From Quercus robur (lineage: Eukaryota > Streptophyta > Magnoliopsida > Fagales > Fagaceae), in NCBI RefSeq assembly GCF_932294415.1, contig NC_065535.1, positions 95,372,862-95,436,861 of the forward strand: 64,000 bases of DNA, written 5' to 3'. Below, in pieces: positions 3,597-60,365 of the stretch. Under the pieces are notes generated by a model, which had not been told where the DNA came from, ran no database searches, and saw only the letters and a program-made list of their open reading frames with translations. The number at the start of each line of letters is the position of its first letter. Position 1 is the first letter of the stretch. The translations under genes and the position numbers were made by a program.

Positions 3597-3809
3597 AAAA
3601 CAAAATAATCAAATTTCGTGTTAGGCCCAAATACATCAAGCCGCCTGTGTGGTAGGCACAAATACATCAAGCCGCCTGTGTGGGGTACGAGGAAGGGTAC
3701 CTCTTCACCAACCAACTAACTTGCGTTGATCAATGCTACATATACATCTACGAAAATGTTTTGACAGCAACCTACATTTTCGTTGCTTCTAAAACTCTCT
3801 CACGGCAAC

Positions 3810-6800: not shown

Positions 6801-7185
6801 AGAATGCAGAAATAAAATGAGAAAAAAGAACCTCCCCTTCTTGTTATTGTCTAGAATTGAAATGAAACTAGTGCATTTTCCTCTTACCTATTTCGCTTCT
6901 TTTCAGGATCATGTTTGTGGGAGTGCAAATTGTTCCTTAGCATTGTACTGGAGCAAAAGGCTAGGGAAGTGTGATCTTGTTGCATATGCGGTATTCTTGC
7001 CTATCTTTAGTGCATGCAAACTCATCGTTGTAGTTTCTGTCTTCATCATATTAATTGACATTGTTGATTCTGTTCAGGCTTCAGCTAGAAGTGGAGTAGT
7101 AAACATTCATCTCGATGAACAAAACCAAAGAGTGCTACTGCGAGGAAAAGCTGTTACTATCATGGAAGGGTCTCTATCAGTTTAG
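3810..7185 (+). CDS. PhzF-family protein, copy A (298 aa, six exons; catalytic Glu replaced)
   Basis: PhzF-like proteins have the diaminopimelate-epimerase fold; bacterial PhzF isomerises a phenazine precursor, and the plant members' substrate is unknown to me. Exons by splice sites and frame: 3810-3839, 3907-4107, 4988-5299, 6246-6407, 6907-6990, 7078-7185, all phase 0. The start gives MAKLPVKYYV, then VDAFTDSAFKGNP, FTPVAE and CGHAT (residues 81-85). Two usual active-site features are changed: where copy B has NIAET, copy A reads NFS (a 6-base loss that removes the Glu equivalent to PhzF E45), and the DPVTGSAH motif reads DHVCGSAN (residues 236-243), keeping Asp and Ser. The ends fit a full-length family member. 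Intron 2 holds a 140-bp MITE and intron 3 a LINE 3' end. It may be expressed but inactive, or a young pseudogene. Confidence 0.75.
4189..4328. mobile_element. 140-bp MITE in intron 2 of PhzF copy A
   Basis: The segment is flanked by TA on both sides (4187-4188 and 4329-4330), and its ends are partly inverted (GGCGGTGTTTGGT and ACAACCAGACCC). The same place in copy B's intron 2 (around 16956) reads straight through as TTTTAATATTTGCC, so copy B shows the empty site. This pairs a target duplication with an unoccupied paralogue. The TA duplication suggests a Tc1/mariner-like MITE. Confidence 0.7.
5635..6150 (+). mobile_element. LINE 3'-end fragment in intron 3 of PhzF copy A
   Basis: Around 5645-5765 one frame reads LWKEKHWNGKTIRAEICKL and then a stretch with AAAIYHIWQQNA, which resembles the region after the reverse transcriptase of plant LINEs (typically KLALAA.VYHIW..RN). 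Stops follow. The rest looks like a 3' UTR and contains a perfect 41-bp tandem duplication at 5928-5968/5969-6009. No clear poly-A tail remains. The fragment is absent from copy B, whose introns are shorter. Confidence 0.6.
5928..6009. repeat. perfect 41-bp tandem duplication
   Basis: Two adjacent identical 41-bp units begin at 5928 and 5969, each starting AATGGCTGAAAGTCTG and ending GGTTTTTC. They lie in the LINE-derived part of copy A's intron 3. Identity without mismatches suggests recent slippage. Confidence 0.85.
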
Positions 7186-8950
7186 ACATTTGGAGTTAAA
7201 ACTCCATTTTGCATGTATTTTGCAATGAAATAATTCCCCGATGACTGGAATTGAAATTTTCAATCCATAGTTGATTTAAGGTAAAAGCAGTTTATTATCA
7301 TCATTTTTTTTTTTTTTTAAAGCAAAAATAGTTATAAGGCAATCTTTGGCCTTGAGTATATATGGGACTATAGGTAAAAACAATTGAACAAACTTTTTTT
7401 GGTAGAGTTATTAGAGGGACTAAAATCACAATTGATCCAAACTTAGATTGTATAATTTTCGTTTTAGTCTTAAAAAATTTTATTTTATGTAACACCTTGA
7501 GATAAAGGGAAAAAAATTAATGATCCAAAGAAGTCTAGGATTAAAAAAAATATATATAAGTGAATAATATAAAGGAAGGCTTTTAAAGATCATAGCTTTG
7601 GATTTGTTTGTTTATTTAATGTAATTTTTCAGCATATAAATCAATTAAAAAGAAATATCGTCTTATACTTTCATGTATAAGTTATCAATACTATTGGTAA
7701 GAACTTGAAAATTGATGGCCCAAGCCCACTAAGAAAAGTAGTGTCTTGTCCTTCAAACTAAGCCCAAACAATAAAAGGTAAATATGTAGAGAGAGGGAAG
7801 ACAATTTTGGTGTAATTTTAAGCTAAGTTCAAGTCTAAGGCCGAAGAGCCTAAAGTAACAAAGAAAAATAATTCACGTTGTAATTGAGAATAAAGCTCTC
7901 CTCAATCAGGTCCGAGGTTAAGTTCTTATATATGATTGATACAAGTTCTAAGTCAGGCAATGCATTGTTCACTTTCTTGTTTATCTTCTGTAATTATTTG
8001 TTTGAGTAATTTTTAGTTTACACGTTACTATCAAAAGTAATGTAAACTTATATTATGAGGCCACAATATTTATTAGCTTTTATGTGTCTTGCACTGTTGC
8101 TCCTTTTTGTTGATACCACCACAATAATACGTCGTGGTTCATGACGACAAGGATGTTGTCTACCATTTCTTGTTAATTCCTATCTAACCCTCAACCAACC
8201 AAAAAAAAAAAAAAGGAAAAAAAAAACCTAAATAGCAATTTCAGAATGCAGATCAAAGCAAATTTTCTTCCATTTCTGCTTGAACCCTATGCCAGAATCC
8301 TCTGAGAGGGATTGACCAAAGCTTCCCAAGCTGAAAGCCGATCTCTTTCCCCACTATCTGTCTTTTACCTTCTACCATCCTTCTTAGTTAACTTCAGATT
8401 TGTGAAACCATCTTTGCTTGAACTTAAACTCTTTCTTCTTTCAATAACTTCACAACCAAATAGAATTACGCAGCTACATTTCTTCACTCAATTGCATGCT
8501 TTCTTGGTTTTATCAGTGTGCGGATTATAAAGCAAGTTTTTGACATCATCTTGACACTTTAATGTGGTACTTTAAGCACACGTTTGTGGATAAGAGTAAT
8601 TCTAGGTTGCTTTTAGTATGAAGCCCTTCGGTTACATAAAGGGCCAATGCATCAGTATTGACGGAGCTATACTAATTGCAATGACTATAGATGACAAAAG
8701 CACTATCCAATGGGCCAAATCATTGTTGCCGGAATCATAAGCCAGCATTTTTTTAGCGGAAATATTATTCTTTATCACCAAACAATTTTTATCAACCTCA
8801 CATCTTTATATTTTAGTAAAATACCAAACTACAAAGCTAGCTGTTCTTCAAGATTTGCATATTGCATAAATTCCTTTCTTTCTAATTATGCATACTCCAA
8901 TGAACTAACTAAGCATACTCAAACACATACCAAAACAATGAACAAAAACT
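7186..8950. other. 3' flank of PhzF copy A, shared with copy C
   Basis: From 7186 to about 7990 this flank is nearly the same as 21848-22643 downstream of copy C, including a poly-A/T tract, the CTTTGGCCTTGAGTATAT stretch and a piece that looks like an old LTR (about 7700-7990). After about 7990 the two diverge. The remaining part, up to the Copia insertion at 8951, has short open frames without recognisable content. Confidence 0.6.
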
Positions 8951-9408
8951 TGTAAGAAAACAGAGTGTAACAAACACAGTGAAGCTAGAGAGAGAGAAAG
9001 AATGAAGAATCAAAGCTCTGTGAAATTTCTGAATCAATACATCAAAGAAACAGTTACAGAAATATTATATAGCCTAAAGAACAAAGAGAATAATCTAACC
9101 ACTCCCTAACCAATTCTAAATTTCACGGATCAACTTCCCACCATCTGATCATTACAACCTACAACTGATCATCACCTTACACATGTCAACACAAATAAAC
9201 TAACTACACTACAACAAAGAGCTACATGTAAACTGATTACACTATTACAGAAAGCTACAGGTCGTATGCTTTGTAGCTGAGGCAATTGTCGTTTAATGAC
9301 TTTGGCAAACTTCATCAATGCAACGTGTACTTTGCCCCAATACTCTGCCTCTCTGCCTAATCTGAAACCTTATCTTGAAATACTCTCATTTACCTTCAAA
9401 CTTTGACA
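8951..9408 (-). repeat. LTR of the Copia fossil (3' LTR in element orientation)
   Basis: A 458-bp terminal repeat with TG...CA ends, flanked on the outside by AAACT and on the inside by a purine-rich tract on the minus strand. It aligns end to end with 14935-15409, with about 18-20 substitutions counted by eye and one length change in a GA-rich microsatellite. Confidence 0.93.
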
Positions 9409-10629
9409 TTCCCCCTAAGATGAGAATCCAATATGTTGCTTGCATCTACATCTGTTTTCTTTGCAACTGATCTATCACCATCTAAGATTGTACATTCCCC
9501 CTGAGGAAGAGAAGCTGAAACATGAATGTTCATAACATTCATTTTACTTAACAAATGTCTCAACTATGAACTGTTAAGGGCCTTATGAGCAAATCTGCCA
9601 GCTGAGTGTGTGTGGGAGTGAAAAATAGCCTAACCACATTGTCTTGTACCTTATCCCTAACAACATGACAATCAACCTCTATGTGTTTGGTTCTCTCATG
9701 AAACATAGGGTTTTCTCCAATATAAATGGCTGCTCGATTGTCACAAAATAGAAGAGCAGGTTGAGGATGCCAAATCTCCAAATCCTTTAACAATGATAAC
9801 AGCCAAGTCAACTCACACATAGTGACAGCCATAGCTCTGTATTCTGCCTCAGCAGAAGATCTAGACACTATAGATTATTTCTTAGACTTCTAAGAGATTA
9901 AGGAATCACCTAAAAATAGGCAATAGCCTGTGGTTGATCTTTTGGTGTTTATACAAGTTGCCCAATCAGCATCTGTATAAGCCTTCAAATGAAAATCTGA
10001 AGATGCAGACAAGAAAATTCCTTGACCTGGACACCCTTTTATGTACTGCAAAATCTTGTAAGATGCATCTAAGTGAGGCTTCCTTGGTTTGGACATGAAT
10101 TGACTCAACTTGTGAACCGGGTAGGCTATGTCTGGTCTGGTGATGATTAGGTATATCAATCTACCAACTAACCTTCTGTAGACTCCAAGATCAGGTAACA
10201 AAGTACAATGTAGCTTGCTTAACTTTAAATTCTGCTCCATTGGTACTTTACTAGACTTGCAAGCTAACATACCAGAATCCTATAGAATCTCCAAAGCATA
10301 TTTTCTTTGGCATAAGCTTATCCCTTTGGCTGATCTGGCTATTTCAAGACCAAGAAAATACTTCAAACCTCCAAGGTCTTTAAGCTTGAAGTGTTGATCT
10401 AAGGAGACTTTGAGTGCTTCAACCTCTTGAACATTATTGATGGCTATGAGAATGTCATCAATATAGACCACCAATGCTATGAAAGAACCACCAAGCCTCC
10501 TTGTAAACAGTGAGTAATCAGCCTTGGATTGCTAAAAACCAAGCTGTTTGACAACAAAACAAAATTTAGCATTCCATTGCCTTGAGGCCTGTTTGAGTCC
10601 ATATAAAGACTTATTTAACTTGCAAACAA

Positions 10630-11481
10630 TGATGGTTTTTAGACCCCTTAAACTATTGATTAAACCTAGGTAATTAGCCAAGTTGTTACTTAGTCCAATT
10701 AAACAAGTCTAGGTTACCACAATATAAAAGATTAAATCATGCAAAGTAGTGGAAAATAAATAACATAAGATATGATCACCCAAGAAACCAAACCGGTAAA
10801 AACCTGAGGAGGATTTGACCTAGCTATCCTCAAGGTAAACTTGAATCCACTATCTTGAAAGAATCGAAGTTCATACAATAAGACTTACAAGCCCCCACGC
10901 TCGACTTCTTATTGCTACCAACCAGTAGAACTTACTGACACGACCACGTGCAAGCTCCGAATCCACGGACTCCTTCTTTCTTGGATTTACTACCAGATAC
11001 AAGCACACCCGCTTGTGTTTTCTTTGAGCTTCAATGGCAGCAACTGAATTGATCATCAAGGTATAGATAAATCTTCTCCTTGAAAACCCTAAGTTTGTGT
11101 AAAGGAAAGCTCCTCTAGATCTCACAAGAGATTTACACAAACCGCAAATATGAGCAACACTAAAACGTGGCTAGGGTTTGCCTTTTATACCTAGGACAAA
11201 TAAGAAATCCTAAAAATGTTTTAAAACACTTAGGGCTGAGTTGGATGAATCTATAGAAAAACATTATGCCCGAGCTTCGATCGATCGAGCCTATCTTTCG
11301 ATTGATCGAGCCAGGCCGAAAGGCACAATCCTTTCCTGCTTTAACTCGATTCCAACTTTACATAGGCGCACAACTTTGAGTAGGACTTAAACACTTCTAA
11401 ACACATTGTTTTGATCATGGTTTGCCAACAATACAAATTAGAGTTCTAAATACATAAAATCCTAAACTTTAGAACCGAACA
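10630..11481. mobile_element. solo LTR nested in the Copia element
   Basis: An 852-bp insert starting TGATGG and ending CCGAACA, with the 5-bp target duplication AACAA on both sides (10625-10629, 11482-11486). It interrupts the Copia reverse transcriptase region; the sequences on both sides belong to one conserved stretch of that domain. No internal coding region and no second LTR are seen, so a solo LTR fits best. A GATCGATCGAG-type motif occurs near 11280-11320. Confidence 0.8.
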
Positions 11482-14400
11482 AACAACATTCCCCCTTTTG
11501 CTGTGAAAGCCTTGAGGGAGTTTTATATACACCTCCTCATGTAAATCCCTATTTAAGAATGCATTGTTGACATCTAACTGTACCAAGTGCCACCCTTTCA
11601 CAGTAGAGATAACAAGAAGAGTTTTAATGGTAGTTAACTTGGCAATAGGTGAAAAAGTGTCAGTAAAATCTAATCCCTCTTGCTGAGTAAATCCTTTTGC
11701 AACTAGTCTTGCTTTATACCTCTCCACAGATCCATCTGCCTTGTATTTAACCCTATAGACCCACTTGCATCCAATTGCCCTTTTGTTGGAAGGCAAAGGA
11801 GTAAGTGTCCAAGTATTGTTAGAAATCAAAGCTGCAATCTCAGCATTCATGGCATCTTTCCACTTAGGATCCTTAATAGCCTCATGATAGAATCTTGGTT
11901 CAGGGATTGAGGTAATAAGGGAGCAAAAATGGGCATAGGAAGGAGAGAGTTAGGAAGAATCAATGTAATTAGAGAGAGGATATTTAGTACCTGATGGATG
12001 AATAGAACCTGACTTGTTGCTGCTGAGATAAGTGGACTGTGTAAGCTCATTTGAAGTAATGGTGCTGCATTTGTAATCCTTTAAGTATGTAGGAGCCTTA
12101 GAAGGTCTAGAAGATCTTCTTAAGGAAGGGATAGATGCAGGTGGATCATTTATAGGATTTTGAGCAACTAAAAGAGTAGTAACAGATTTTGCAGAAGTGG
12201 AATGACTAGAATCTAATATGACAGATTTAGGTACAATAGAATCAGGGATGACAATATTGATAGGATCTACTGCTTGATGTGAAACTTGAGTAGGATTACA
12301 AGGGGAAGGAGAAGTGTGTGAAGATGGAAGGATAGGATCAAGAAATATGGCATCAACTGAGGTTGCCACATTAGGACAGATATGAGGAAAAGACATAAAA
12401 GCTTGTGGTGAAGTGATAGAAGAGATGAAAGGAAAAATATGTTCATGAAAAGATACATCCCTTGAAATGAAAAGTTGTTTGGTTATCAAATTCAACAATT
12501 TGTAACCCTTGACACCAAAAGGGTATCCAAGAAAGACACAAGGAATAGATCTAGGAGCAAATTTTGATCTATTGTGAGCTAAGGTAGATGCAAAACATAA
12601 ACATCCAAACACTTTTAAGTGATTATAGAAGGAGTTTTGCAATAAAGTTTCTCAAATGGAGTTTTATGATTCAAAACAGTACTAGGCAACCTTTAATAAT
12701 GTGAACAGCTGTCAAAACACAATCCCCCCAATAGCAAAGTGGTATACTTGACTGAAATTTCAACGCTCTAGCAATGTTTAAAATGTGTTGATGCTTTCTC
12801 TCCACAACTGAATTTTGTTGTGGAGTAGCAACACAGGAGTCTTGATCTATAATCCCATGTTGAGCATAAAAATCTTTGAGAAAAAATTCTTGAGCATTGC
12901 CAGTCCTAATTACTTTAATATGAGATTGAAACTGAGTAAAGATCATGTTATAAAAAGAGATTAACAAAGGCCTAGTTTCTGTTTTGGATTTCATTAGATA
13001 AACCCAAGTGGATCTTGTAGTATCATCCATAATTGTAAGAAAGTATCTAAAACTATCATGAGTTGCTTTAGCAAAAGGTCCCCATACATCACAATGTATT
13101 AAATCAAAAGCATTCTCAGATATATAATTAGAATTAGGAAAGGGTAATCTTTTAAATTTGGCAATTGGACAAACAACACATTCTTTATTGGAATGAAAAG
13201 AAGATACATCTGATACACAATAAGGAAGTTTGTCATCAGACACATGTCCTAATCTAAGACACCATAAGTATGACTTATTGACAGTAGAATCATTAGAGAT
13301 AGAATGAACAAAAGATTTGAAAACTGACTCTAGGACAGTAGTTGCTTCTGAAGCAGTCTTGCAATTTTCTGAGGTTTGCAGCAGATAAAGATTGTTGTGA
13401 AGCTTACCCAATCCAATTACTCTTCAACAAGTAAGGTCCTGTATAAAATAGTAGTTTGAAAGAAAAACCAAACAGCATGATAATGATTTGGTTAATTTGC
13501 TCATTGATATCAGATTAAATGAAAAAGCTGGGACACAAATCACATTTTCAAGAATCAATGTTAGGGTAAGTTGGACTGTGCCTATGTGTGTGACAAGAAC
13601 CCTTTCACCATTAGGTAAATGTACAAAGGATGACAAGGAACTAGTTATGCTGGTGAAAAGGGATGTAGAATGAATGATGTGATCAGTGGCTCCTGTGTCT
13701 AGAACCTAAGTTTTAGCATTATGAGCTATTTTATTTGAAGGATTTTCAGAAAAAATTGAATTCTTCAAATTAATGCAAACAGAATCCTAGAAAGAGGCAC
13801 AAGAAATACCTGAGAGAGTAGAATTGGCTACATGAACAACATCTTGACTGGTAGAGGAAGAAGCATGAGAGCTCAACATTGACAGTAATTGCTAGCATTG
13901 CTCATCTATGAATGGAAAGGAGCTTGCAGTAGCCTCGGATTGACCATTTTCACCATCAAAAATCACTTGATTTGCCACAGAAATTTTGCCTTTTTGCTTG
14001 TATCCTGGTGGAAATCCAACTAGTTTGTAGCATTTTTCCATGAAATGGCCAAGTTTTCCACAATAACTGCAAACAGGTTTGCCTTTGTCTTTGTTCTTTC
14101 CTCCTTGATTGAAACCTTGAGTCTTGAATGCCAGAGCTGTTGAATCAACTGACACACCACCTCCATTGAAACTTAAAGCCCTCTGCCTCTCTTCTTGTAT
14201 CACCAAAGAGAAGGCTTTGTCAATTGAAGGACTTGGCTCCATCATCAAAATCTGAGTTCTAACTTGTGAGAAAGCTTCATTCAAGCCATTGAGGAATTGC
14301 ATCAATGCATCTTGATGATTGAAGAGTGTGATTTTATCATTCACTCCACAAATGCATCAGCCACATGAACAAGATGGTGAAGGCCTGAGATTGAGTAACT

Positions 14401-14934
14401 GATCCCATGATGCTTGAAGATTAGTGAAGTAGGTAGTCACGGTTGCATCTCCTTGCATAATTGTTGAGATCATCTTCTAAAGCTGTGAAATTCGTGGACC
14501 ATTAGCTTGAGAAAAACGGTTTTTGAGTGAATTCCAAACCTCCATTGCAATGTTTCTGTAGATCACACTTGCAGTGATATAAGGTGAAACAAAATTCAAA
14601 ATCCATGAGGAAATCATGGAGTTGTTCTTCGACCAAGCAATTTTCTACAGGGGTGTGACAGCCATAGAAATCGTGATAGAGCCATCAACAAAACACAGCT
14701 TGCTCTTCGCATCTAGTGCCATAAGCATAGCCCTAGCCCAATTGGGGTCATTGTCCTCAGTCAAGAGCTGAGTAACGAGAATCGCACCTGGTGACTCTCC
14801 ATGGTGAAAAAAAAAAAGGGCTTCTCGAATCCTCCATTGGAGAAAGCTCACAATGAGCATTAGATTGAGAAGCAGTGGAAGAAGGAGCTTGATCTTGATT
14901 CGCCATTAATGGAAGCAAAAATGCTCTGATACAA

Positions 14935-15409
14935 TGTAAGAAAATAGAGTGTAACAAACACAGTGAAGCTAGAGAGAGATAGAGAGAGAGAGAAAGAAAG
15001 AATGACGAATCAAAGCTCTGTGAAATTTCTGAATCAATACATTAAAGAAACAGTTACAGAAAGATTATATAGCCTAAAGAACAAAGAGAATAATCTAACC
15101 ACTCCCTAACCAATTCCAAATTTCATGGATCAACTTCCCACCATCTGATCATTACAACCGACAACTGATCATCACCTTACACGTGTCAACACAAATAAAC
15201 TAACTACACTACAATAGAAAGCTACATGTAAACTGATTACACTATTACAGAAAGCTGCAGGTCGTATGCTTTGTAGCTGAGGCAATTGTCATTTAATGAC
15301 TTTGGGCAAACTTCATCAACACAACGTGTACTCTGCCCCAATACTCTGCCTCTCTGCCTAATCTGAAACCTTATCTTGAAATACTCTCATTTACCTTCAA
15401 ACTTTGACA
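14935..15409 (-). repeat. LTR of the Copia fossil (5' LTR in element orientation)
   Basis: A 475-bp terminal repeat with TG...CA ends, slightly longer than its partner because of an expanded GAGA tract near 14971-15000. The primer-binding site lies just inside it, and the target duplication AAACT follows at 15410-15414. Confidence 0.93.
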
Positions 15410-16390: not shown

Positions 16391-16510
16391 CAGAGAATAT
16401 ACCTCTTCACCAACCAGCTGATGTGCTTTGACCAATGCTACATATACATCTACGAAAATGTTTTGACAACAAACTACATTCTCGCTGCTTCTAAACTCTC
16501 TCACGGCAAC

Positions 16511-16571
16511 ATGGCAAAGCTACCTGTGAAGTACTATGTGGTACCTCTTTCTATCTCTCTCTGTTATGTAT

Positions 16572-16618
<47 letters not shown>

Positions 16619-18572
16619 ATGTATATGTATATATGGGATTCTAATGAGTTGGGTTTTGGGTACAGGTGGACGCGTTCACTGACTCAGCTTTCAAGGGAAA
16701 CCCAGCAGCGGTGTGTTTATTAGAGGAACAGAGAGATGAGAAATGGTTGCAAGCTGTGGCAGCTGAGTTCAACATCGCCGAGACTTGTTACTTGACTCGG
16801 CTATCTGGGTCCGACTCTCTTGACTCGTCCAATCCTAGGTTCCGTCTCAGATGGTTCACTCCTGTTGCTGAGGTCTCACTTATTAATTTCACTTCCACTC
16901 TTAGAAAAACCAGAATTTTAAAAATGTTTCAAAGTGCTACCTTTTGAGTTTTAATATTTGCCTTTGTGGGTGTTCTTAGTTTATCTTATTATATTTTAAT
17001 TTTAGATCATTAGAATAATATTTAAAATTTTTAAATTGGGTGCTTCCTATTAGCTTTTAGATCATGTTGGCAGCTGCACATGCATTGTTTTCATCTGGTT
17101 TGGTGAATTCCAACATTATTGAGTTTGTCACACTCTCTGGAATTTTAACTACTAAAAAGTTCCAGGAAACCAAGGCATCTAATATTTCGGATATTCAGAA
17201 TGGTGAATCGCAAGATTGCTTTCTGATTGAATTGGATTTTCCAACTATTCCAACAATTGATTCCAATTCTGAAGAAGTTTCATCAATTTCCAATGCCTTC
17301 AATGGTGCTTCTGTGATTGATATAAAGAACACTACTACTTCAGATGGCCTCCTTGTAATGTTCTAATACAGTTTATATTTATTTTCTTTTTCTTCAATAC
17401 CTTAGTTAGTATCTTAATTATCTTTAGTGAAATATTCATTGCGAAAATTTCAAAAGCTTAATGTTTGATTAAAATGAATGACATGAACAATATGGTGTCT
17501 CATTCATGACTTTCTTGCTCAAATCTTTGGACACAGATGTGTGGTTGGTTGGAATATTTGTAGCATTCCTTGTGTTTTTAGATGATTCCTTATGGAGCAA
17601 TGCCATATTTTCCACTGATTTATGACTACTTCATAAGTACTCAGGAGTCAAGCTTATCAATATTGCAGGTTGTACTCCCATCAGGAGAAAGTGTGGTTGA
17701 AATACAGCCAGAGTTTGATGCTATACGTAAATGTCCTGGACCGGGGATAATTGCAACAGGGGCTGCTCCCTCAGGGTCTGGGTTTGATTTTTACAGTCGG
17801 GCCTTTTGGCCAAAACTTGGGATCAATGAGGTAAAATTTGTCAGTCTTTGGTCTCAACCAATTGCAATGATTGTGAAGTGCATGACGCTATAGCTAAATA
17901 TCTATTGCATCTCTTTACAGTGTTAATAATATTTTATAACTTTGTTAGCATGATCTCTTGAGATAATTCAAAAGGTTCAGTAATGTTTAATGTAATGATC
18001 ATTGCCTGCAGAATGGAATTATGATGCTCATGCTATTGCCATAAACAAGCAAGAGATGTTTTTTAACCTCATTCTCTTCACTAACAGCATTTAAAGAGTA
18101 AATGCTTCATACATTGGATAGCTTACTAGTTCTTATATAGTTATATCTATTGTTCCTCTCCTTTCAGCTTTCTAACTCTATCTTCCTTTTGTCATCTGGA
18201 AAAGAAGATAGACAGTAGTGATGAATTGATAATTTAATGACATTTCCCTTAGTTGGAATTCAAAACATCTGCATAATAAAGTTATATAACTTGCCTTTCA
18301 GGATCCTGTTACTGGGAGTGCACATTGTGCACTAGCACCATACTGGAGCAAAAAGCTTGGGAAGTGTGATCTTGTTGCATATCAGGTATTTTCACCATGT
18401 GTATTGCAAACTCATAGTTGTATTTTTGTCTGTCATATTAATTTACAACGTTTACTCTGTTCAGGCATCACCTAGAAGTGGAGTACTAAACATTCATCTA
18501 GACGAACAAAACCAGAGAGTGCTAATGCGAGGAAAATCTGCTACTATCATGGAAGGGTCTCTCTTAGTTTAG
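16511..18572 (+). CDS. PhzF-family protein, copy B (about 294 aa; GHAT motif lost)
   Basis: Exons by splice sites and frame: 16511-16540, 16666-16872, 17061-17354, 17669-17830, 18302-18385, 18465-18572, all phase 0. It keeps NIAET with the Glu expected to be the catalytic base (E49) and DPVTGSAH (residues 232-239). However, the start of exon 3, which in copy A encodes VKICGHAT, is missing together with about 530 bp of intron 2. An AG at 17059-17060, inside former intron sequence, lies in frame and would join FTPVAE to IMLAAAHALF. The product would then lack the Gly-His-Ala-Thr segment that contributes the active-site His. So the frame is open, but activity is doubtful; it could also be called a pseudogene. 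Intron 1 contains a long TA microsatellite. Other exons are cleaner matches to the family than those of copy A. Confidence 0.7.
16573..16636. repeat. TA/GTATAT microsatellite in PhzF copy B intron 1
   Basis: A run of about 17 TA units is followed by degenerate GTATATAT units. The corresponding intron of copy A has only a short TATATATA, so the tract expanded after the duplication. Confidence 0.85.
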
Positions 18573-20292
18573 AAATTTGAAGTTAGAACTCCATATTGCA
18601 TGTATTTTACAATTGAAATAAATGACTATTACCGGGTGGAAGAATCCCCTGGAGCTAGAGTTTTCAAATTCTATAGCTGCAAGGTGATATTTTTTTCCCT
18701 TTAAGAGAAACTTTCAATAACTGTTCCACATAACAATGTTTGTCAAGGCAAGTTTTCAAATACAGCTTCATTTTTCTCTGTAATGTCTTCCTAAAATTTT
18801 CTAACTCTTACCTTGAAAAGAGTGTAACTTTGCACTCCATTGTTTGAGATATTGGAGACAAAATGATTGCATTTGCCTTTTGAAAGCTTACGTTTTCATT
18901 GATTTTCCATTAAAGAATCTAGAACAAACTAGGAACCAGGCAAAATATTCAAAAATCATATGCATCAACCTTACAAAATGATCTTAATTTTGACTAATAC
19001 TTAACAGATACATACAAGTATTGCAATTATTTTATTTTATCTTATTGGGTAAGTACAATTATTTAAAGATCAACTATAACATGTTATTAAGCCTTTCGCC
19101 TTATCATAATTTTTTTTTATGATAAACTTTATCCACCATTTCTTTGTCTCCCTCGGTCTTTTGAATGTTCTTCTAGGTTATTAATATTATTAGATGGTTT
19201 AAATATCATGTGAATGGACATAATGGACTAATTAGACTAAAATGGATTTAATGAACTGAAATACTATGCTGATGTAGTTCAAAAAGAGCGAAGTAACAAT
19301 AAATGAGTAACTGCCATTACATTTGTATATTCATAGCTTTTGAGTTTAAAACGACTTTCACTTAAATTTAGCTAGACAAAAGTAGATCAAAATGTTACGT
19401 TAATATAGCTTAACAAAAGCGTAATAACAATAAATGCTATATTGAAAATTTTAGATATTATGAGTTTATGATATGTATATATTATAAATAAATTTAGATT
19501 TAAAAAAGTGCTATTAATCCAAAACTGTCTTTTTACATTATGTAAGCGCACAAAAATGGGTTGAATGGACTGAAGTAGACCAAATTAGACTAAAGTGGAC
19601 AGAATAGATTGAAGTAATCCGAATGGATTGAAGTGGACCAAAATGGACCTATTTGGACCAATTGGACGGAAGTTGACAAAATAGGGCCGAATAGGACCAA
19701 AGTGGACAGAATAGACTGAATAGAACTGAAGTTTTCAAATAAAATAAAAGGTAAATTAGGAGATTTATTAACATATCTCTATTGGCCTACGAATATATAT
19801 TGCTTATATGTTAAAAAATTGAATAAAATAACAATAAAATTCGATTGAATAAGTATATTTTTCTTATTTATTAAAAAAAACACACACACACACTACATTC
19901 CCTTGTACTTAGAGATAGACCTGATTTCTTCAGTATTACACTTTACCCCTTGTGCATTGGAGTGAAGTGAATATGTGCCTTTCCGTCATTACTCATGTAT
20001 GTTGCACTTGTGATGCGATTTGGGAATATAAACCAACCAGCTCACAGCCACAGGTCGTAGATTCAATATAGTTAATGGGGTTTCTGAGATGTGTTATATG
20101 GACATGAAGTGGAATAGTTTATATATCTATACACACACAAACCACCAAGTTGGCAAGTTCGTTTTTTATTTTTTATTTTATATAAATCCAATTCTTTCCT
20201 CAATTTGCTTTCTGATGTCCGTTGACCATTTTATATTAACAGAAACAACTTCATTTTCAGTGCATCAGAAATTCTCTGAGTCTCACAGGAAC
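18573..20292. other. intergenic DNA between PhzF copies B and C
   Basis: No gene is visible. The main feature is a degenerate minisatellite at about 19557-19735. There is also a short CA run at 19880-19893 and a TCATTTTCAG...CATCAGAAATTC leader just before copy C. Confidence 0.6.
19557..19735. repeat. degenerate GGACTGAAGT minisatellite
   Basis: Variants of GGACTGAAGTGGACCAAA recur about a dozen times with irregular spacing of roughly 10-20 bases (GGACTGAAGTAGACC, GGATTGAAGTGGACC, GGACAGAATAGACTG and so on). A short outlier of the same motif lies near 19215-19260. The block has no open frame worth noting. Confidence 0.65.
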
Positions 20293-21847
20293 ATGGCAAT
20301 GAAACCTGTCAAGTACTATGTGGTATTGTGTGTGTGTTTTATAATCTTATATGTATGTGTTGTATATTTGTGAATGAAAGTCTGAGTTGGCATTGGGAGG
20401 TGGACGCGTTCACTCACTCAGCTTTCAAGGGTAACCCAGCAGTGGTGTGTTTCTTAGAGGAAGATCAGAGAATCCAGGAGTGGCTACAAGTGGTGGCAAC
20501 CGAGTTCAACATCCCTACCACGTGTTACTTGACTCACCTCACTCAGTCCAACTAGGCCAATCCTCAGTTCCGTCTTAGATGGTTCACTCCTGTTGCTGAG
20601 GTATGTACTTTCATTTCCATACATGACTGAGAAAGCAATATAGAAAAGGAGATATATTCTAATTTACCTGAAAGAAAAATGAATTAGTTTAAGCATACTT
20701 GGCTGTTCTTGATAAAAATTTGGCGTCCCAAGTAATATAATTTTAAATTATGAATCCTATGAATTTTGAATTTCTTTATATTGTGATACGATTATTAATG
20801 TTAGTGATATCAAGGCCCCAAATTGTACTATTCTTGTCAAGTTCATTGTATTAGGAATCTTAATCCTAACCATAGTACTATAACCTTAAGGTTAGTTCAA
20901 GGTTAACCTGTAAATAGTCCAATGCTTATTCGGTTCATTTGTAACACACAAAGCTAAATAGTAAAACGGTAGACGTTTAGAGGTTTTTTTGCTATGAACT
21001 TACACCTCCAAGCTGAACCACTTGAATTCTTTATAATCTTTCTTAATTTTTTCTTATTCAAGAACTTGATATATTATCAATCTCTGTTTGGTCTCTTTAT
21101 TGCATTAATAACATGTTTCTGATTATGTTAGAATGAACATTGAACATCTCTGGATACATGATTCAACAAGTCATGAGGGACTTTTAAGGTTGACACAGTT
21201 TAATGCACTTATTAGAGCCCGCATAATGAATTGATTAATATTATTCGATTGCAAAAAACAAACAAATGAGAGATGTTATCAGACCTAAGTAATACCCTTT
21301 ACTTAATACGGCTTTTGTGTTGAATAGAATGTTATCAGACCTAAGTAATACCCTTTACTCAAACAAATTTCGCCATGTTAAAGGATGCTTCTTCATGTGT
21401 TGAATAGCTGAGTAATTCTTGTATCCAATTTTTTTATAATGACTTTGTACCTTGGATAATACTAGAATGCAGAAATAAAATGAGAAAAAAGAACCTCCCC
21501 TTCTTGTTATTGTCTAAAATTGAAATGAAATTAGTGCAATTCCTCTTACCTGTTTCGCTTCTTTTCAGGATCATGTTTGTGGGAGTGCAAATTGTGCCTT
21601 AGCATTGTACTGGAGCAAAAGGCTAGGGAAGTGTGATCTTGTTGCATATGCGGTATTCTTGCCTATCTTTAATGAATGCAAACTCATCGTTGTAGTTGTT
21701 GTCTTCATCATATTAATTGACATTGTTGATTCTGTTTAGGCTTCAGCTAGAAGTGGAGTAGTAAACATTCATCTCGATGAACAAAACCAAAGAGTGCTAC
21801 TGCGAGGAAAAGCTGTTACTATCATGGAAGGGTCTCTATCAGTTTAG
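20293..21847 (+). pseudogene. PhzF-family pseudogene, copy C (chimeric, lacks exons 3-4)
   Basis: Exon 1 (20293-20322, MAMKPVKYYV) and exon 2 (20400-20601) are diverged: the NIAET position reads NIPTT, losing the Glu, and an in-frame TAG interrupts exon 2 at about 20552. Exons 3 and 4 are absent. Exons 5 and 6 (21569-21652, 21740-21847) are almost identical to those of copy A, including the unusual DHVCGSAN motif. From about 21027 to 22643 the sequence follows copy A (about 4732-4767, then 6446-7990), so the 3' half was copied from A or its parent. Not expected to make a functional enzyme. Confidence 0.85.
21305..21362. repeat. small direct duplication in copy C intron
   Basis: The phrase ATGTTATCAGACCTAAGTAA with the following CCCTTTACT occurs twice, about 60 bp apart (near 21270 and 21329), while copy A has it once (about 6666). 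The second copy is joined through a short unrelated stretch, ACGGCTTTTGTG, which suggests a local template-switch duplication after the copies separated. Confidence 0.7.
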
Positions 21848-22643
21848 ACATTTGGAGTTAAAACTCCATTTTGCATGTATTTTGCAATGAAATAATTCCC
21901 GTGACTGGAATTGAAATTTTCAATCCATAGTTGATTTAAGGTAAAAGCAGTTTATTTTCATCATTAAAAAAAAAAAAAAAAAAAAGCAAAAATAGTTATA
22001 AGGCAATCTTTGGCCTTGAGTATATTTGGGACTATAGGTAAAAACAGTTGAACAAACTTTTTTTGGCAGAGTTATTAGAGGGACTAAAATCACAGTTGAT
22101 CCAAACTTAGATTGTATAATTTTCGTTTTAGTCTTAAAAAAATTTATTTTATGTAACACCTTGAGATAAAGGGAAAAAAATTAATGATCCAAAGAAGTCT
22201 AGGATTAAAAAAAATGTATAAGTGAATAATATAAAGGAAGGCTTTTAAAGATCATAGCTTCGGATTTGTTTGTTTATTTAATGTAATTTTTCAGCATATA
22301 AATCAATTAAAAAGAAATATCATCTTATACTTCCAAGTATAAGTTATCAATACTATCTGTAAGAACTTGAAAATTGATGGCCCAAGCTCACTAAAAAAAG
22401 TAGAGTCTTGTCCTTCAAACCAAGTCCAAACAATAAAAGGTATATATGTAGAGAGAGGGAAGACAGTTCTGGTGTAATTCTAAGCTAAGTTCAGGTCTAA
22501 GGCCAAAGAGCATAAAGTAACAAAGGAAAATAATTCATGTTGTAATTGAGAATAAAGCTCTCCTTGGTCAGGTCCGAGGTTAAGTTCTTATATATGATTG
22601 ATACAAGTTCTAAGTTAGGCAATGCATTGTTCACTTTCTTGTT

Positions 22644-23989
22644 TATCTTCTTCTTCCAGAATCATCCCCCTTTATTGGGAGGTTTTTCCCCCTTATATAT
22701 CCTCCTTTCTTGCATCCTAGTCCTCCAATTGTATGCCTCAAGGCTTTCCTCGAGATATTGGTCAAATCAGAGTTCTGCTGAAGGTGATAGAAGGGGCTAC
22801 TAGCTGTGAAATTATTGTTCAGATGTCATTTCCTCATTAATGCAGCTGATAAGGTGTTGCAGAGCATTTAATGTGGAGGGGAAAGGTATACCCTTACAGG
22901 AAGGTCCCTTCCACCATCTTGGCCCCTTCCCCAGGTCTTTTCCCTTCCATTAGCCCCCTAAAACCTTACTATCTTGACCAAAGCGTTATTCTTTTTTTAA
23001 GAGACAATGAATTTTTTTTTTTTTTTTGCTGAGAAATACATGAATTTTATTAAGGAGAAAGATACATAGCATCCTGAAACACAGAGTTTTCAATACATGA
23101 TAGGTTTCCTCTAACCAAGTAACAAAAGTGTCGATCCCTTTGGCGTGTTGTGCCAAAGTGTGTGCTGGTATGTTGCCATGCCGCCTAACATGCAGTATCT
23201 GAGTTCTTCGGAAGTCACGTAGGGTGTGGTGAGTGCCTCTAATGATGTCCTCAACAGTAACCGGTGTTGTGGATGAGCCAGTGAGAGCACCTGAGATGGT
23301 TGATGAGTCGGTCTCGAAGATAACATCCTATAGTCCAATATCTCTACTCTCTAGCGAAGTGAGCTACTTCTTCCATGGCCTTAGCTTCAGATGCAAGAGG
23401 TCCCAGCGGTAGTGGGAGACAGAGAATTTGTTAATTATCAAACAAGCCTCTAAATTTATAAAAACACACACAAGCACACAAATAACAAATTCCTGGCATC
23501 TGGCATTAAATTACAATTGATATTTCTGGCTATTTGCTTTTTTCTAAGGAGAATAACCTACTTTAATAAATTTATGAAACATGATAAGAAGGATTTATAA
23601 GTCAATAAAATTAGAGGCATAATTTTTTTTTTTTTTTTTTTTTTTGTTGCAACCGTTGACATGAAGTATTGTAATTAGTGTACAAAGTATGTGTTGTCAA
23701 TGATGGACTTATGTAAAAGTACGTAATATTACTCAAATTGCAAGTTACAAATAGAAACCACTCTTTTAATGTTATATTATGGTTAAATTTTACAAAAAAG
23801 TAGCATGATCAAAGCCTATATATATATATATATATATATATATGATAATTCGATAGTTATTATTGATGTGATCATTTTGTTTGATTATTTATTGGTTTTG
23901 GCTAATGAACTTCAAGCTTGTGTTCCTTGTCAAAAAAAAAAAAAAACCTTCAAGCTTGTGTTAATATTTTCACTCTCGTTGCCAAACAT
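22644..23989. other. LTR-like and LINE debris
   Basis: At 22644, where the homology with copy A's flank ends, an LTR-like fragment begins (about 22644-22985; pyrimidine-rich with GCATTTAATGTGGAGGGG). A LINE 3' end follows (23013-23420). The rest is AT-rich with poly-T at 23622-23645 and a (TA)n run at 23818-23842. No gene is seen. Confidence 0.55.
23013..23420 (-). mobile_element. LINE 3' end with RNase H-like domain
   Basis: On the minus strand, frames read ASEAKAMEEVAHFA near 23350-23390 and then fragments such as HVRRHGNIPAHTLAQHAKG (about 23110-23190), the pattern of the plant non-LTR RNase H-like C-terminus (A.A...A...G, then R..N..AH.LA..A). It ends in a poly-A tail, seen as poly-T at 23013-23028 on the + strand. 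At least two frame or stop defects are present. Confidence 0.65.
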
Positions 23990-24172
23990 ACCTGTGAAAC
24001 GTATTGCCCAAGAGATGTAGAAAGAATACATGATAGGAGAATATTCTATAAATTAAGATAAAGTGGAAAAAGAAAACTGTTGAAAACCTAATGGAAATAA
24101 TATGCAATAAGTTTACCCCAGTTTTTAATCGCAACTACCTTTTATAAAAAATTAGATGATTGCATTAAAAGT
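23990..24172. repeat. 183-bp direct repeat, left flank of the tandem-array block
   Basis: This segment, from ACCTGTGAAACG to GCATTAAAAGT, recurs at 27929-28111 in the same orientation with only about five differences. The sequences outside the two copies differ. It does not begin with TG or end with CA, and no primer-binding site or purine tract adjoins it, so it is not a typical LTR. The tandem array begins directly after it. Confidence 0.92.
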
Positions 24173-25924
24173 ACTGGGTAATTTTTTTTTTTTTACTTTT
24201 TTTTTTTGGTAAATTTTTATTATTAAGTGGATTATAAATAATTAAGATAGTAATTAATATTTAGAGTGTGGACTGCGAAGTAATTTATCTTTTCTTTTTG
24301 TATGATACTTTACTTTCAAGAGATCAAATACTAGGTAAATTTTTTTTTTCATATTTTTCACTTTTTTTTTCATTTGTTAATTTTATATTATTAAGTGAAT
24401 TATAAATATTTAACGTAGTAATTAGTATTTAGAGTGTGGACTGCAGAGTGATTTATCTTTTCTTTTTTCTTTTTCTCTTTATATGGTGCTTTACTTTCAA
24501 GAAATCAAGTACTAGGTAATTTTTTTTCACTTTTTTTATATATTTTATATAATTAAGTGGATTATAAATATTTAAAATAGTAATTAGTATTTAGATTATG
24601 AACTGTAGAGTGATTTATCTTTATCTCTTTTTTTTTTCTTTTCTTTTTTTGTATGGTACTTTACTTTTAAGAAATCAAATACTAGGAAAAAGAAAATTTT
24701 CACTTTTTTTTCACTGTAAATTTTATATTATTGAGTGAATTATAAATATTTAAGATAGTAATTAGTATTTAGATTGTAGACTATGGAGTGATTTATCTTT
24801 ATCATTTTTTTTTTTTTTTTTTTTTTTTGGTATAGTACTTTACTTTCAAGAAATCCATAATTGAGTTTTTTTTTTTTCACTTTTTTTTTCTTTTGTAAAT
24901 TTTATATTATTAAGTAGATTATAAATATTTAAGTTAGTAATTAATGTTTAGACTGTGAACTGCGGAGTAATTTATTTTTTCTTTTTCTTTTGCTTTTTGT
25001 ATGATACTTTACTTTCAAGAAATCAAGTACTGGGTAATTTTTTTTTTCTTTTGTAAATTTTATATTATTAAGTGGATTATAAATATTTAAGATAGTAATT
25101 AGTATTTAGATTGTGGACTGTGGAATGTGGAGTGATTTATCTTTATCTTTTTTCTTTTTTCTTTTTTTTGGTATGGTACTTTATTTTTATGAAATCAAAT
25201 ACTAGGTAATTTTTTTTTCATTTTTTTTTTTTTTGCAAATTTTATATTACTAAGTGAATTATAAATATTTAAGATAGTAATTAGTATTTATATTGTGGGC
25301 TATGGAGTGATTTTTCTTTTTCTTTTTCCTTTTGTATGGTTCTTTATTTTCAAGAAATTAAGTACTAGGTAATTTTTTTTCACTTTTTTTTTTTCGTTTG
25401 TAAATTTTATATTGTTAAGTGAATTATAAATATTTAAGATAGTAATTAGTATTTATATTGTGGAATATGGAGTGATTTGTCTTTTTCTTTTTGTATGGTA
25501 CTTTATTTTCAAGAAATCAAGTACTGGATAAATTTTTTTTTCACTTTTTTTTTTCTTTTGTAAATTTTATATTATTAAGTGGATTATAAATATTTAGGAT
25601 AGTAATTAGTATTTAAAGTATGGACTATGGGATGATTTATCTTTAATTATATATATTTTTTCTTTTTGTATGGTATGTTACTTTCAAGAAATCAAGTGTT
25701 GAGTAAATTTTTTTTCTTTTTTAAATTTTATATTATTAAATGAATTATAAATATTTAAGTTAATAATTAGTATTTAGAGTGTGAACCTTGGAGTGATTTA
25801 TCTTTATCTTTTTTCTTTTGTATGGTACTTTACTTTCAAGAAATTAAGTACTAGGTAAAAAAAAAAATTTTCACTTTTTTTTTTCTTTTGTAAATTTTAT
25901 ATTTTTAAGTGGATTATAAATATT
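24173..25924. repeat. AT-rich tandem array, 11 units of about 168 bp
   Basis: The landmark ATTATAAATA occurs at about 24231, 24399, 24561, 24739, 24918, 25076, 25258, 25423, 25583, 25743 and 25913, giving spacings of 158-182 bp. Each unit contains CACTTTTTTT, TAAATTTTATATTATTAAGT, TAGTAATTAGTATTTAGA, GAGTGATTTATCTTT, TATGGTACTTTACTTTCAAG and AAATCAAGTACTAGG. Poly-T length differences explain most of the size variation. No open frame spans it. The unit size is like that of plant satellites, but only this one block is seen. Confidence 0.93.
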
Positions 25925-26106
25925 GTGGAGACTTTTTGCCTCAGCTCGGCCAATAGCTTGCTTGTGATCGAGGCTTGGTGGTACACTACTCCCTTAGCTT
26001 CACAGCTTATAAGGCAGAAAGTGGGGGGGTTTTCTTTCGATGTGGGATTCAAGCCAAAATCGGTTACAAGCAAGCTATTGGCCGAGCTGAGGCAAAAAGT
26101 CTCCAC
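25925..26106. mobile_element. 182-bp foldback MITE with perfect 41-bp inverted ends
   Basis: The arms 25925-25965 and 26066-26106 are perfect inverted complements over 41 bp, beginning GTGGAGACTTTTTGCCTCAG. A 7-bp AAATATT flanks both sides (25918-25924, 26107-26113). It landed in the last unit of the 168-bp array, whose ATTATAAATATTTAAG is interrupted at that point. The 100-bp middle is unrelated to any gene I know. The perfect arms suggest recent insertion, and a transcript would form a long hairpin. The 7-bp duplication leaves the superfamily open. Confidence 0.9.
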
Positions 26107-26113
26107 AAATATT

Positions 26114-26518
26114 TAAGTCATTTTTTAGGTCATAAGGGTATTTCGGTTACTTTTTAGGTTATGAGGTCATTTTAGTCATTTTTTTGTTTCAAGGTCATTT
26201 TGGTCAATTTCTAAATTTCAAGGTCATGTGGTCATTTTTTTTGTCCTAGGGGTATTTTGGTCATTTTTTAGGTTTTAGTTTTATTTTGGTCATTTTTTAG
26301 GTTTTATGATAATTTTGGTCTTTTTTTTTTTTTTTGTTTCAGGGTCATTTGGTCAATTTTTTTAAGGGTATTTTGGTCATTTTTTAAGTTTCATGGTTAT
26401 TCCAGTCATTTTAGTAATTTTGGAATTTTTTTTGAGTTTTAGGGTATTTTGTCATTTTTTAGGTTCTAACGGTATTTCAGTCATTTTTTAGTTTTCAAGG
26501 GTATTATGGTAATTGGCA
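26114..26518. repeat. GGTCATTTTTTAGGTTTT minisatellite
   Basis: Degenerate repeats built from AGGGTATTTTGGTCATTTTTTAGGTTT variants, with a period of about 25-40 bp and roughly a dozen copies. The GGTCATTTT core recurs throughout. It directly follows the foldback element and precedes the 93-bp array. Confidence 0.8.
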
Positions 26519-26524
26519 AGAAAA

Positions 26525-27835
26525 AAAAAAGGAATCATCGAATCTAACAAAAGTACCACCAAGTGTGAGAAATGTACAGTCTAATATGATGTTAGTACTG
26601 TCTAATGTGATTATGGAACCATCAAATGTGATAAAGAAATAAGAGGAACACCAAATGTGACAAAAGTTTACTCACATGTGATATTGGAACTGCACAATGT
26701 GAAGACGGCACTATCAAATGTGAGGAAAAAATTAAAGTATAACAAAATGTGAGAAAAGTACGGTCAAATGTGATGTTGGTACTGCCTAATGTGACAATGG
26801 AACCATCATTTGCGAGAAAAAAAAATTTTGAACCACCAAACATGACAAAAATACATTCACATATGATTTTGGTACTGCACAATTTGAAGATGGTACCATC
26901 AAATGTTAGAAAAAAATATGAGTACAACCGAATGTGGCAAAAGTACTGTCATATGTGATGTTAGTACTACTTAATGTGATAATGGAACCATCGAATGTGA
27001 GAAAAAAAATAAGGGAACTATCGAATGTAACAAAAATATGGTTACATGTGATGTTGGTACTACCCAAATCCCAATGTAACGATGAAACTGTCAAATGTGA
27101 GTAAAAATTAAAGTACCACTAAATGTGAGATAAACACGGTCAAATAAGATGCTAGTACTACCCAATGTGACAATGGAACCATCAAATGTAAGAAAAAAAA
27201 AAGGGGGGGAACCATCGAATGTGATAAAAATACAGTCACATGTGATGTTGGTACTACACAATTTGAGGATGGTATAATCAAATATGAGAAAAAAATACGA
27301 GTACAACCGAATGTGACAAAAGTATGGTCAAATGTAATTTTAGTACTACCCAATGTGACAATGGAACCATCAAATGTAAAAAAATAATAACAGAACTATC
27401 GAATGTGACAAAAGTACAGTTATATGTGATATTGGTACTACCTAATGTGACAATGGAACTGCCAAATGTGAAAAAAAAATTAAAGTATCACCGAATGTGA
27501 GAAAAATACGATTAAATGTGATGTTGAACTGCCTGATATGACAATAAAACTATCAAATGTGAGAAAAAAAATAAAGGAACCACCGAATGTACAGTCACAT
27601 TTGATGTTGGTACTGCATAATGTGATGATGGTACCATCAAATGTGAAAAAAATAAAGGAACCACCGAATGTAACAAAAGTACAGTCACATGTAATGTTGG
27701 TACTGCATAATATGATAATGGTACCATCAAATGTGAAAAAAAAAAATAAGGGAACCACCGAATGTGACAAAAGTACAGTTACATATGATGTTGGTACCGC
27801 ACAATATGAGGATGGTACCACTAAATATGATGCTT
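26525..27835. repeat. tandem array of about 14 units of about 93 bp, with internal sub-repeats
   Basis: The landmark ACCATCAAATGTGA (with variants) recurs about every 80-100 bases, near 26612, 26708, 26808, 26900, 26988, 27088, 27180, 27270, 27367, 27460, 27550, 27640, 27722 and 27818. Each unit is built of four related 20-27 bp pieces on the plan GTAC..-.CA-AATGTGA, for example GTACAGTCACATGTGA and GTACTGCACAATGTGA. Because many units are multiples of three, open frames run through the block on both strands, but they are low-complexity by-products. Confidence 0.93.
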
Positions 27836-27928
27836 TGGTAACCTGGTATAGTAGGTTGCCTACTAATGAGTATCTTACCAAAAAAAAAAAAAAAAAAAAA
27901 AAAAGAAGAAGGGAGTACGGTAGAATTA

Positions 27929-28111
27929 ACCTGTGAAACGTATTGCCCAAGAGATGTAAAAGAATACATGATAGGAGAATATTCTATAAATTAAGATAAA
28001 GTGGAAAAAGAAAACCGTTGAAAACCTAATGGAAATAATATGCAATAAGTTTACCCCGGTTTTTTATCGCAACTACCTTTTATAAAAAAATTAGATGATT
28101 GCATTAAAAGT
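27929..28111. repeat. 183-bp direct repeat, right flank of the tandem-array block
   Basis: Second copy of 23990-24172, same length and orientation, about 97 percent identical by eye. It is followed by GATTCCTTAATCG, whereas the left copy is followed by the array. The two copies enclose 3756 bp. Confidence 0.92.
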
Positions 28112-28403
28112 GATTCCTTAATCGTTAAATATGGAATATATGCTAAATGCTTGCATAGCAAATCTCAGAAATTTTGGAATTGATTACTCACTAATAAATT
28201 TTGAGATTTAAAGGTAAGAGAGGGAAACAAATGACAATCACAACAAAATATCCCTTATAACATGTTGAAAAAAAAAATCCCTAACAATGAAAAATGTTAT
28301 AATTTCCATATTCAACTTATTTGTACTCCAAGGGCAAAAAAAATGGAAGTCAATGGAATTAGGATTTATTTTTTGTTGCTAAATAAAAAGAATTATGGTC
28401 TAG

Positions 28404-28434
<31 letters not shown>

Positions 28435-28912
28435 TGAGAAACAAATTATGGTCTAAGTTTCACAGCCCCGCTCATTCCCAATCTAAATTTTGAACTCACT
28501 CAAACGGAGTTAACAGATGTTAAAGATGGGTAGGGGTTATTGAGTTGATGTGGCATGAAAGTCTATGTAAGCATTTTTTTGGTGAGGTGTCATGTATTTA
28601 TTGGCTGGGATTACAAGGTCGGTAAGCTGACCTTGTAGTCCCGGACTATACAATAATTTCCCAATTGCATGATATCTTGTGCACGAATTTATGCGTTCAA
28701 TTATTCTTTTTTTTTTTTTTCCTTTTTTAATATTCGTTTTTGCTTTATTGACAGATTTAGACCCACTTGATTAAGGCTTATATCCAACCAGAACCGTTTA
28801 TCACGTCAAATAATTAAGCACCTTTCATGATCATTCTCACCCACCCTTTATTTCAAGTTTCAAGTTTCAACAATGTGAGGGAAAAAATAAACACACATAT
28901 ATAAAATATAAG

Positions 28913-39283: not shown

Positions 39284-39570
39284 GATGAATCAGCCACCTT
39301 TGTATAAATCCTTAGCTAATTATGAATGCAAAAATGAGGGTTCAAAAAGAGTATGGCCCCAAAAATTACCAAACACATTTATCAGTCTTGGGCTAGACTG
39401 AAGTCCAAAGGCCCAAAAAACCTACACCAGCCTATAGAGAGAAAGGAAAAAGGAAAATGCTGCACAGGTACAAGCACATCTCTGATCATGCCGTAAATTG
39501 AACACTTTCAACAGCATAGACAAAGGTATCGCTACACATGCATCACAATTCACATGCACATCCCTGCCAT

Positions 39571-39978
39571 CTAGGAACCTGTTTCAGCTAATGAAATTGA
39601 ATTATAGTCTGACTTGGATATAAGACAAGACAGACATGCAACCTTTGAGTTTAGCAGATTTAAGATTTAAAGCAAGGTACAAGTTATGATTATTATGATT
39701 AGTAGAAGAACCAAATAGGTGCCATTTTAAAAAGAATCAAGATGTACCTCACAAGGTGGCAACCACATGCAATCTAAGAACCGGTTTCAGTTCATGAGAT
39801 TGAATTATAGTCTGACTTTGATATAAGACATGAGAGACTTGCAACTTTTGACTTTAGCAGATTTCAAATCAACGCAAGGTACAAGTTACTTATGATAATT
39901 ATGCAAGAGCACAATAACCAAACGAGTTCCATTTCAAAAAGATACAAGATGTACCTCACAAGGTGGCAACCACATCCA
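39571..39978. repeat. two-unit tandem duplication, about 204 bp per unit
   Basis: Unit 1 at 39571-39773 and unit 2 at 39774-39978 both begin with CTA(G/A)GAACC and contain AATTATAGTCTGACTT, TTTAGCAGATTT, AAGGTACAAGTTA and GATGTACCTCACAAGGTGGC. They are about 85-90 percent identical by eye. It is non-coding and lies downstream of the L21 gene. Confidence 0.85.

Positions 39979-52829: not shown

Positions 52830-60365
<7,536 letters not shown>

Follow-up and report, generated by a model that had tools for sequence, protein, structure and literature searches.

Relation to described transposons

Mutator-like elements (MULEs) are marked by inverted ends that start with G and by target duplications of 8–11 bp, usually 9 bp. 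Duplications of 9 nt are described for one MULE family in PMC4486113. In the nematode Foldback/Mutator family Tm1 (PMC3169594), 9-bp target duplications accompany 13–15-bp units that occur in both ends in variable repeat number. PMC9659126 reviews arrays that stem from transposons or travel within them, and PMC11963269 treats arrays within Retand elements. We analyzed a 64,000-nt stretch of the Quercus robur genome (contig NC_065535.1, positions 95,372,862–95,436,861; hereafter "the window"), in which two 183-bp direct repeats at 23990–24172 and 27929–28111 enclose a stack of three tandem arrays. The mobile unit at this locus is, as judged from its other copies, the interior of the block (24173–27928), a 5′-incomplete copy, and not the whole block. 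The family to which this interior belongs is likely a DNA transposon bearing terminal inverted repeats, of Mutator/foldback type. The locus is a known kind of element with an unusual local scar. An earlier reading of the window from its letters alone (the original prediction) knew of no named element of this form. This is answered in part: in its behavior the family is like those Mutator/foldback transposons whose ends bear arrays. The literature was searched for mechanisms and element classes, and we do not claim the family as unpublished.

The oak family resembles MULEs in its inverted ends starting with G, in a 9-bp duplication that is perfect in two of five facing end pairs and 7/9 in another, and in the 6.2–6.7 kb that separate the ends in three of the five pairs. 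It differs in that its recognizable inverted ends are short and its subterminal regions palindromic and array-bearing. With Tm1, as excerpted from PMC3169594, it shares composite ends with variable-number tandem repeats and 9-bp target duplications, and it differs in having three different arrays on the side of one end. The parts of the window block are as follows:

23990–24172, plus strand: copy 1 of the 183-bp flank duplicate, from alignment and genome search; it ends in AAGT, four bases shared with the junction's array unit (by eye)
24173–25924, plus strand: 168-bp array of 10 anchored units plus partial ends, its left end lying mid-array at ACTGGGTAATT
25918–25924, plus strand: left copy of a 7-bp target duplication, AAATATT
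25925–26106, no strand: 182-bp hairpin (foldback), resembling a miniature inverted-repeat transposable element (MITE), inserted into an array unit
26107–26113, plus strand: right copy of the 7-bp target duplication, AAATATT
26117–26510, plus strand: 29-bp minisatellite, 13 pattern matches
26549–27832, plus strand: 93-bp array of about 13.8 units, with some four 21-bp sub-repeats to a unit
27833–27928, plus strand: conserved transposon 3′ end, with two inverted repeats, an A-rich loop (27880–27915) and the terminus GTAGAATTA (ACC common to the flank)
27929–28111, plus strand: copy 2 of the 183-bp flank duplicate, beginning at the transposon end

The predicted structure was confirmed. The 168-bp array exists, with 10 anchored units spaced 158–182 bp apart plus partial ends in place of the 11 units first counted. 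The minisatellite, predicted at roughly 30 bp, was borne out as a 29-bp pattern with 13 matches at a loose threshold. The 93-bp array, predicted at 14 units and measured at about 13.8, alternates in a two-unit period of about 184 bp (permutation p 0.002) and is followed by a 96-bp tail. Within the block, every open reading frame (ORF) of at least 90 aa falls in the arrays or runs across them.

A dispersed family with a conserved 3′ terminus

We searched the 785.7-Mb genome (42 contigs), in which the locus lies at 95.37–95.44 Mb of a 98.2-Mb contig. For the array, foldback and tail queries, the best-scored subset of candidates was used; match counts are lower bounds, include the window locus and comprise several matches per copy. 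The 168-bp array query yielded at least 218 matches in the best 39 of 128 candidates, the 93-bp array query at least 193 in the best 40 of 573, and the last 93-bp unit with its tail at least 71 in the best 40 of 290. Both array units are dispersed, and the search for further loci with the same order of parts, which the original prediction had proposed, succeeded for the interior, without the 183-bp repeats. Array order was judged at the seven other loci whose retrieved stretch held all three arrays (L033–L037, L040 and L044), and six of them (L033–L037 and L044) share the order 168, 29, 93. At L029 the order is 29, 93, tail, while at L041–L043 the 168-bp array alone is visible in the retrieved stretches. 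A 155-kb genome sample (16 stretches, eight of them adjoining the window) matched the block once, and weakly (34 bp, E 4e-4), and four exact-pattern scans of viral contigs, a set to which the window's own genome possibly does not belong, gave no match.

Across nine loci, the window's among them, ten 3′ ends share one terminus, composed of GGTAACCTGGTATAGCAGGTTGCCTACTAGTGGGTACCGTACC, an A-run and GGTACGGTAGAATTACC, beyond which the flanks differ. The aligned ends were picked by pattern, with two spurious pattern matches left out. In the window, the terminus GGTAGAATTA followed by ACC ends where copy 2 of the 183-bp repeat begins. Read as its reverse complement, GGGTAATTCTACCGTACC, the terminus occurs with at most one mismatch at 76 forward and 78 reverse places (154), whereas the reversed control has 0 and 2. 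The list of places covers about 100 of the 154, those with one mismatch up to contig C35 only. Among the listed places, a plus-strand variant (GGGTCATT...) faces a minus-strand place 6.4 kb away, and the 85-base end of this variant, used as a query, returned 98 candidates, of which the best 40 were scored.

Facing pairs were counted for the 27 of these 40 scored ends that lie on contigs C1–C6, where the motif list appears complete. Five of them have a listed 3′ end facing them, at distances of 6464, 6169, 18028, 6737 and 9403 bp, and at all five loci a GGGTCATTCTACCGTACC-type 5′ end faces a GGGTAATTCTACGGTACC-type 3′ end; the window copy is without the 5′ one. C2:77811536–77817999 and C2:18063062–18069798 are two of the long members. 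In the same pair order, the 9-bp flanks match at 7, 5, 3, 9 and 9 positions, compared with a mean of 2.75 and a maximum of 5 in cross-pairs (n = 20). The target duplication is clear in three of the five facing pairs (two 9/9, one 7/9). Read inward, one long member (L052) has a 93-bp unit adjoining its 3′ end (by eye). Foldback elements have tandem arrays in long composite inverted repeats at both ends; here arrays were seen beside one end, the opposite end having been read over 85 bases at L051 and over 20 bases at four others. It is the shared array order, the conserved 3′ terminus, the facing ends and the 9-bp duplications of some pairs that together lead to the Mutator/foldback assignment. 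A plant transposon family, likely of this type, spreads stacks of satellite-like arrays.

At C6:25287619–25292902, nine terminal motifs follow one another in one direction, with seven of the eight spacings measuring 565–611 bp. This row looks like a tandem array of the element's end and bears on the seeding of satellite DNA.

Other element classes

The original prediction had held that the block is not an ordinary long terminal repeat (LTR) element, and we concur: it has no TG..CA ends, no primer-binding site (by eye) and no polypurine tract. Its likeness to LTR retrotransposons or to terminal-repeat retrotransposons in miniature (TRIM) lies in the 183-bp direct repeats around a non-coding interior, and its difference in a repeat found only at this locus, without a short target duplication outside. 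The repeat runs from ACCTG to AAAGT, the outer flanks are unalike, with no 4–6-bp target duplication, and a purine run at 27880–27915 (A25 GAAGAAGGGAG) stands 13 nt from copy 2. The prediction had noted no purine tract; a purine run does exist, but in the light of the other copies it belongs to the transposon end, as its A-rich part, and is no polypurine tract.

Helitrons have a 5′ TC, a 3′ hairpin followed by CTRR, insertion between A and T and no target duplication. The 3′ end found here is GAATTACC, the base that follows it is variable, and the family has 9-bp duplications, so this class was rejected. A short or long interspersed nuclear element (SINE or LINE) finishes in a 3′ tail and has a target duplication. 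This class was likewise rejected, since the A-run lies within the conserved end and other 3′ ends keep sequence past it, so that it is no poly(A) tail. Retrozymes have a hammerhead ribozyme in their repeats; an Rfam scan of the window returned no family at the gathering score, and this class too was rejected.

The 183-bp duplicates were found only at this locus

The coordinates given for the 183-bp direct repeats proved exact. The pair aligns over 184 columns with three substitutions and two one-base indels (BLAST E 4e-82), and the sequence beyond the two copies is unrelated between the sides. A whole-genome search with the 183-bp query, which skips very common words, found the segment at two places, both full length and both at the window locus. 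With both matches at the window locus, nothing points to a dispersed repeat, the finding that the original prediction had named as telling against it. We sought comparable long flank repeats at the three copies whose flanks could both be compared (C41:1949k, C41:2669k and C39:31392k) and found none; a fourth copy, C3:6773k, was left out because its retrieved stretch showed no 3′ end. The three copies lend no support to long target duplications as a trait of the family. Because the repeats were found only here and no counterpart was found at the three copies, the block including them is not the mobile unit. The mobile-unit option of the original prediction thus holds for the interior, which recurs elsewhere with its parts in the same order, and fails for the 183-bp repeats.

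On its left, the window copy begins in the middle of an array unit, at an AAGT common to that unit and the flank duplicate (by eye). The phase at which the array starts also varies among the other copies. The edge at L033 and one internal place in L050 look like later LTR-type insertions (by eye).

A foldback passenger and the relative age of the parts

The predicted 182-bp foldback element was confirmed at 25925–26106. The stretch 25912–26120 has a folding z-score of −15, and the foldback query returned 215 candidates in the same genome, with at least 98 matches in the best 40 scored. A 92-base probe, made of both foldback flanks and one AAATATT, matched without a gap across the joint in seven of seven copies (L033–L037, L040 and L044), over 60 to 92 bases. 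These gapless matches indicate that the seven copies are without the foldback, and in comparison with them the foldback is a later, separate insertion into the array. It resembles hairpin MITEs as a near-perfect inverted repeat that is dispersed and has a target duplication; it differs in the 7-bp length of that duplication and is placed in no superfamily.

Pairs of 168-bp units differ by at least 8.8% (45 pairs from 10 units) and pairs of 93-bp units by at least 7.8% (78 pairs from 13 full units, two partial units having been dropped), whereas the flank pair differs at 3/182 positions; each array-unit pair is more diverged than the flank pair at an uncorrected p < 0.05. Since the array units are more diverged, the arrays would predate the flank duplication, unless the flanks were homogenized by conversion or the arrays mutate much faster. 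At substitution rates of 1.3e-8 to 2e-9, the flank-pair divergence K of 0.017 corresponds to 0.6–4 million years. The locus can be resolved into three separable events, namely transposon insertion, flank duplication and MITE insertion.

Origin of the flank duplication

We give about even chances to a template switch, or an unequal joining, that involved an occupied version of the site and an empty one and duplicated the 183-bp flank. A member E of the family would first have entered the site next to segment A (now copy 2), directly on its left, to make X-E-A-Y. On an empty version X-A-Y, be it the sister, the homologue or an excision product, repair or replication would later have proceeded 183 bp into A. 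At the 4-bp microhomology AAGT it would have jumped to the 168-bp array in an occupied version and continued through the element into A once more, which yields X-A183-E′-A-Y. Only the A183–array junction would be new; as the right junction would be the original transposition junction (E-A) and the left one the old empty site (X-A), one new junction suffices. The empty site would have read CCAAACAT, then ACCTGTG..AAAAGT, then GATTCC, in single copy, and the hairpin MITE would have entered the array as a separate event. Simple transposition is disfavored because a 9-bp duplication would be expected. Long direct repeats around a transposon fragment, in which the repeat extends from the transposon end to a microhomology, may, as a tentative generalization, be a footprint of recombination between occupied and empty alleles. 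If this is true, scars of this kind would look like LTR or TRIM elements to structure-based annotation and would put a date on the switch. By this pattern, LTR finders might mis-call such loci.

Several observations weigh against the template switch or against the transposon assignment on which it builds. We infer both alleles, and no empty or full-length allele of the window site was seen. The window copy is without a 9-bp target duplication (2/9 by eye), though this is expected under the template-switch model and others. The start of L044 is at most two bases off the array phase of the window copy (GTACTGGGTAATT), and this start phase could be a genuine second end. The remaining one of the seven loci judged for array order, L040 (G000:C5), has a 93-bp array with its end, then the 168-bp and 29-bp arrays, an arrangement of two elements tail to head. 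The retrieved stretches of L034 and L037 yielded no terminus, and the terminus of the window carries one extra A (GAATTAACC versus GAATTACC). Two of the facing pairs, with flank matches of 5/9 and 3/9, do not exceed the cross-pair control. Finally, the two inverted repeats of the 3′ end have 85% of cells paired versus 83% in shuffles and 4 double-change pairs versus 2.7, a weak covariation of the terminal hairpins that is only suggestive.

At L040, one element's 3′ end abuts another's 168-bp array.

An unlikely route is a tandem duplication of the end of E together with A at AAGT, giving X-E-A-E′-A-Y, after which the first E was excised or deleted. Its junctions would be identical to those of the template switch, but it requires two events. 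At L031 (G000:C39:31391143–31394259), an element end with about 30 bp of TCTA(CA)n flank is repeated in tandem with a 5′-truncated element end; the pattern looks comparable to the window scar and counts for the template switch as well. It resembles a tandem duplication of this sort in which the first E has not been lost, and the row of element ends at C6:25287619–25292902 also fits. No doubled target sequence is present at 23980–23995 (by eye), though a clean excision or deletion is possible.

We consider improbable a patch-type repair, in which the 183-bp overhangs of a staggered break were filled in and a transposon piece was captured as filler, as that filler would need to stop by chance at the transposon 3′ terminus. 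Duplications or direct repeats arising in break repair are described in PMC7407515, PMC8355091 and PMC4202315. In rice, tandem duplications attributed to the repair of adjacent nicks are common and enriched at 50–200 bp (excerpts of PMC7971508 and PMC7407515), and the window itself holds two filler-free tandem repeats of about 205–215 bp. The patch-repair duplications of PMC7971508, as excerpted, share with the window a local duplication of about 200 bp, but the window copies lie 3.76 kb apart with a transposon between them.

The filler-free tandem duplications in the window, at 39565–39978 and 58631–59058, are 83% and 92% identical.

An assembly error that joined a repeat copy to the locus is very unlikely. 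The repeats are long and T-rich, but the locus lies within a 98-Mb contig, and the duplicates differ at five places and are therefore not the same segment taken double. An origin as a 5′-truncated retroposon that entered by target-primed reverse transcription and duplicated 183 bp of target is hardly credible: it would suit the constant 3′ end, the variable 5′ ends and the A-run near the 3′ end, but the A-run is internal and followed by the conserved GGTACGGTAGAATTACC, the family has facing inverted ends and 9-bp target duplications, and the long flanking duplication is absent at the three other copies. The second option of the original prediction, that the arrays expanded where they stand, with a duplicated segment already on either side, draws on the adjacency of the tandem arrays and is rejected as next to impossible, because all 45 + 78 compared unit pairs are more diverged than the 183-bp pair and the stack recurs at other loci.

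Genomic surroundings

Reading frames in the window have Pfam matches to glycosyltransferase family 8 (ATG at 29334), GARS, PhzF and a lectin receptor kinase. The glycosyltransferase-8 gene, which resembles a galactinol synthase, lies about 1.2 kb downstream of the block. Three similar tandem stretches at 3698–7989, 16400–18621 and 20236–22651 are up to 95% identical over 1.3 kb, and the two that were scanned have PhzC-PhzF Pfam matches. Between the first two lies a copia-type element (8951–15409) with 93% identical repeats, its coding sequence split over several ORFs and its integrase match below the Pfam cut-off. An RNase-H-like fragment (PF13456; 22986–23327, minus strand) to the left of the block is possibly the 3′ end of a LINE.

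Two small inserts flank the block. About 27 bp to the left of copy 1, at 23910–23962, a 23-bp insert, ccttgtc(A)15c, lies between two copies of the 15-bp cttcaagcttgtgtt (by eye) and looks like an extremely truncated SINE or LINE insertion. About 300 bp to the right of copy 2, at 28391–28457, a T-run insert ending in gagaaaca lies between near-copies of aattatggtcta(a)gttt (by eye) and is perhaps a second tiny truncated retroposon insertion.

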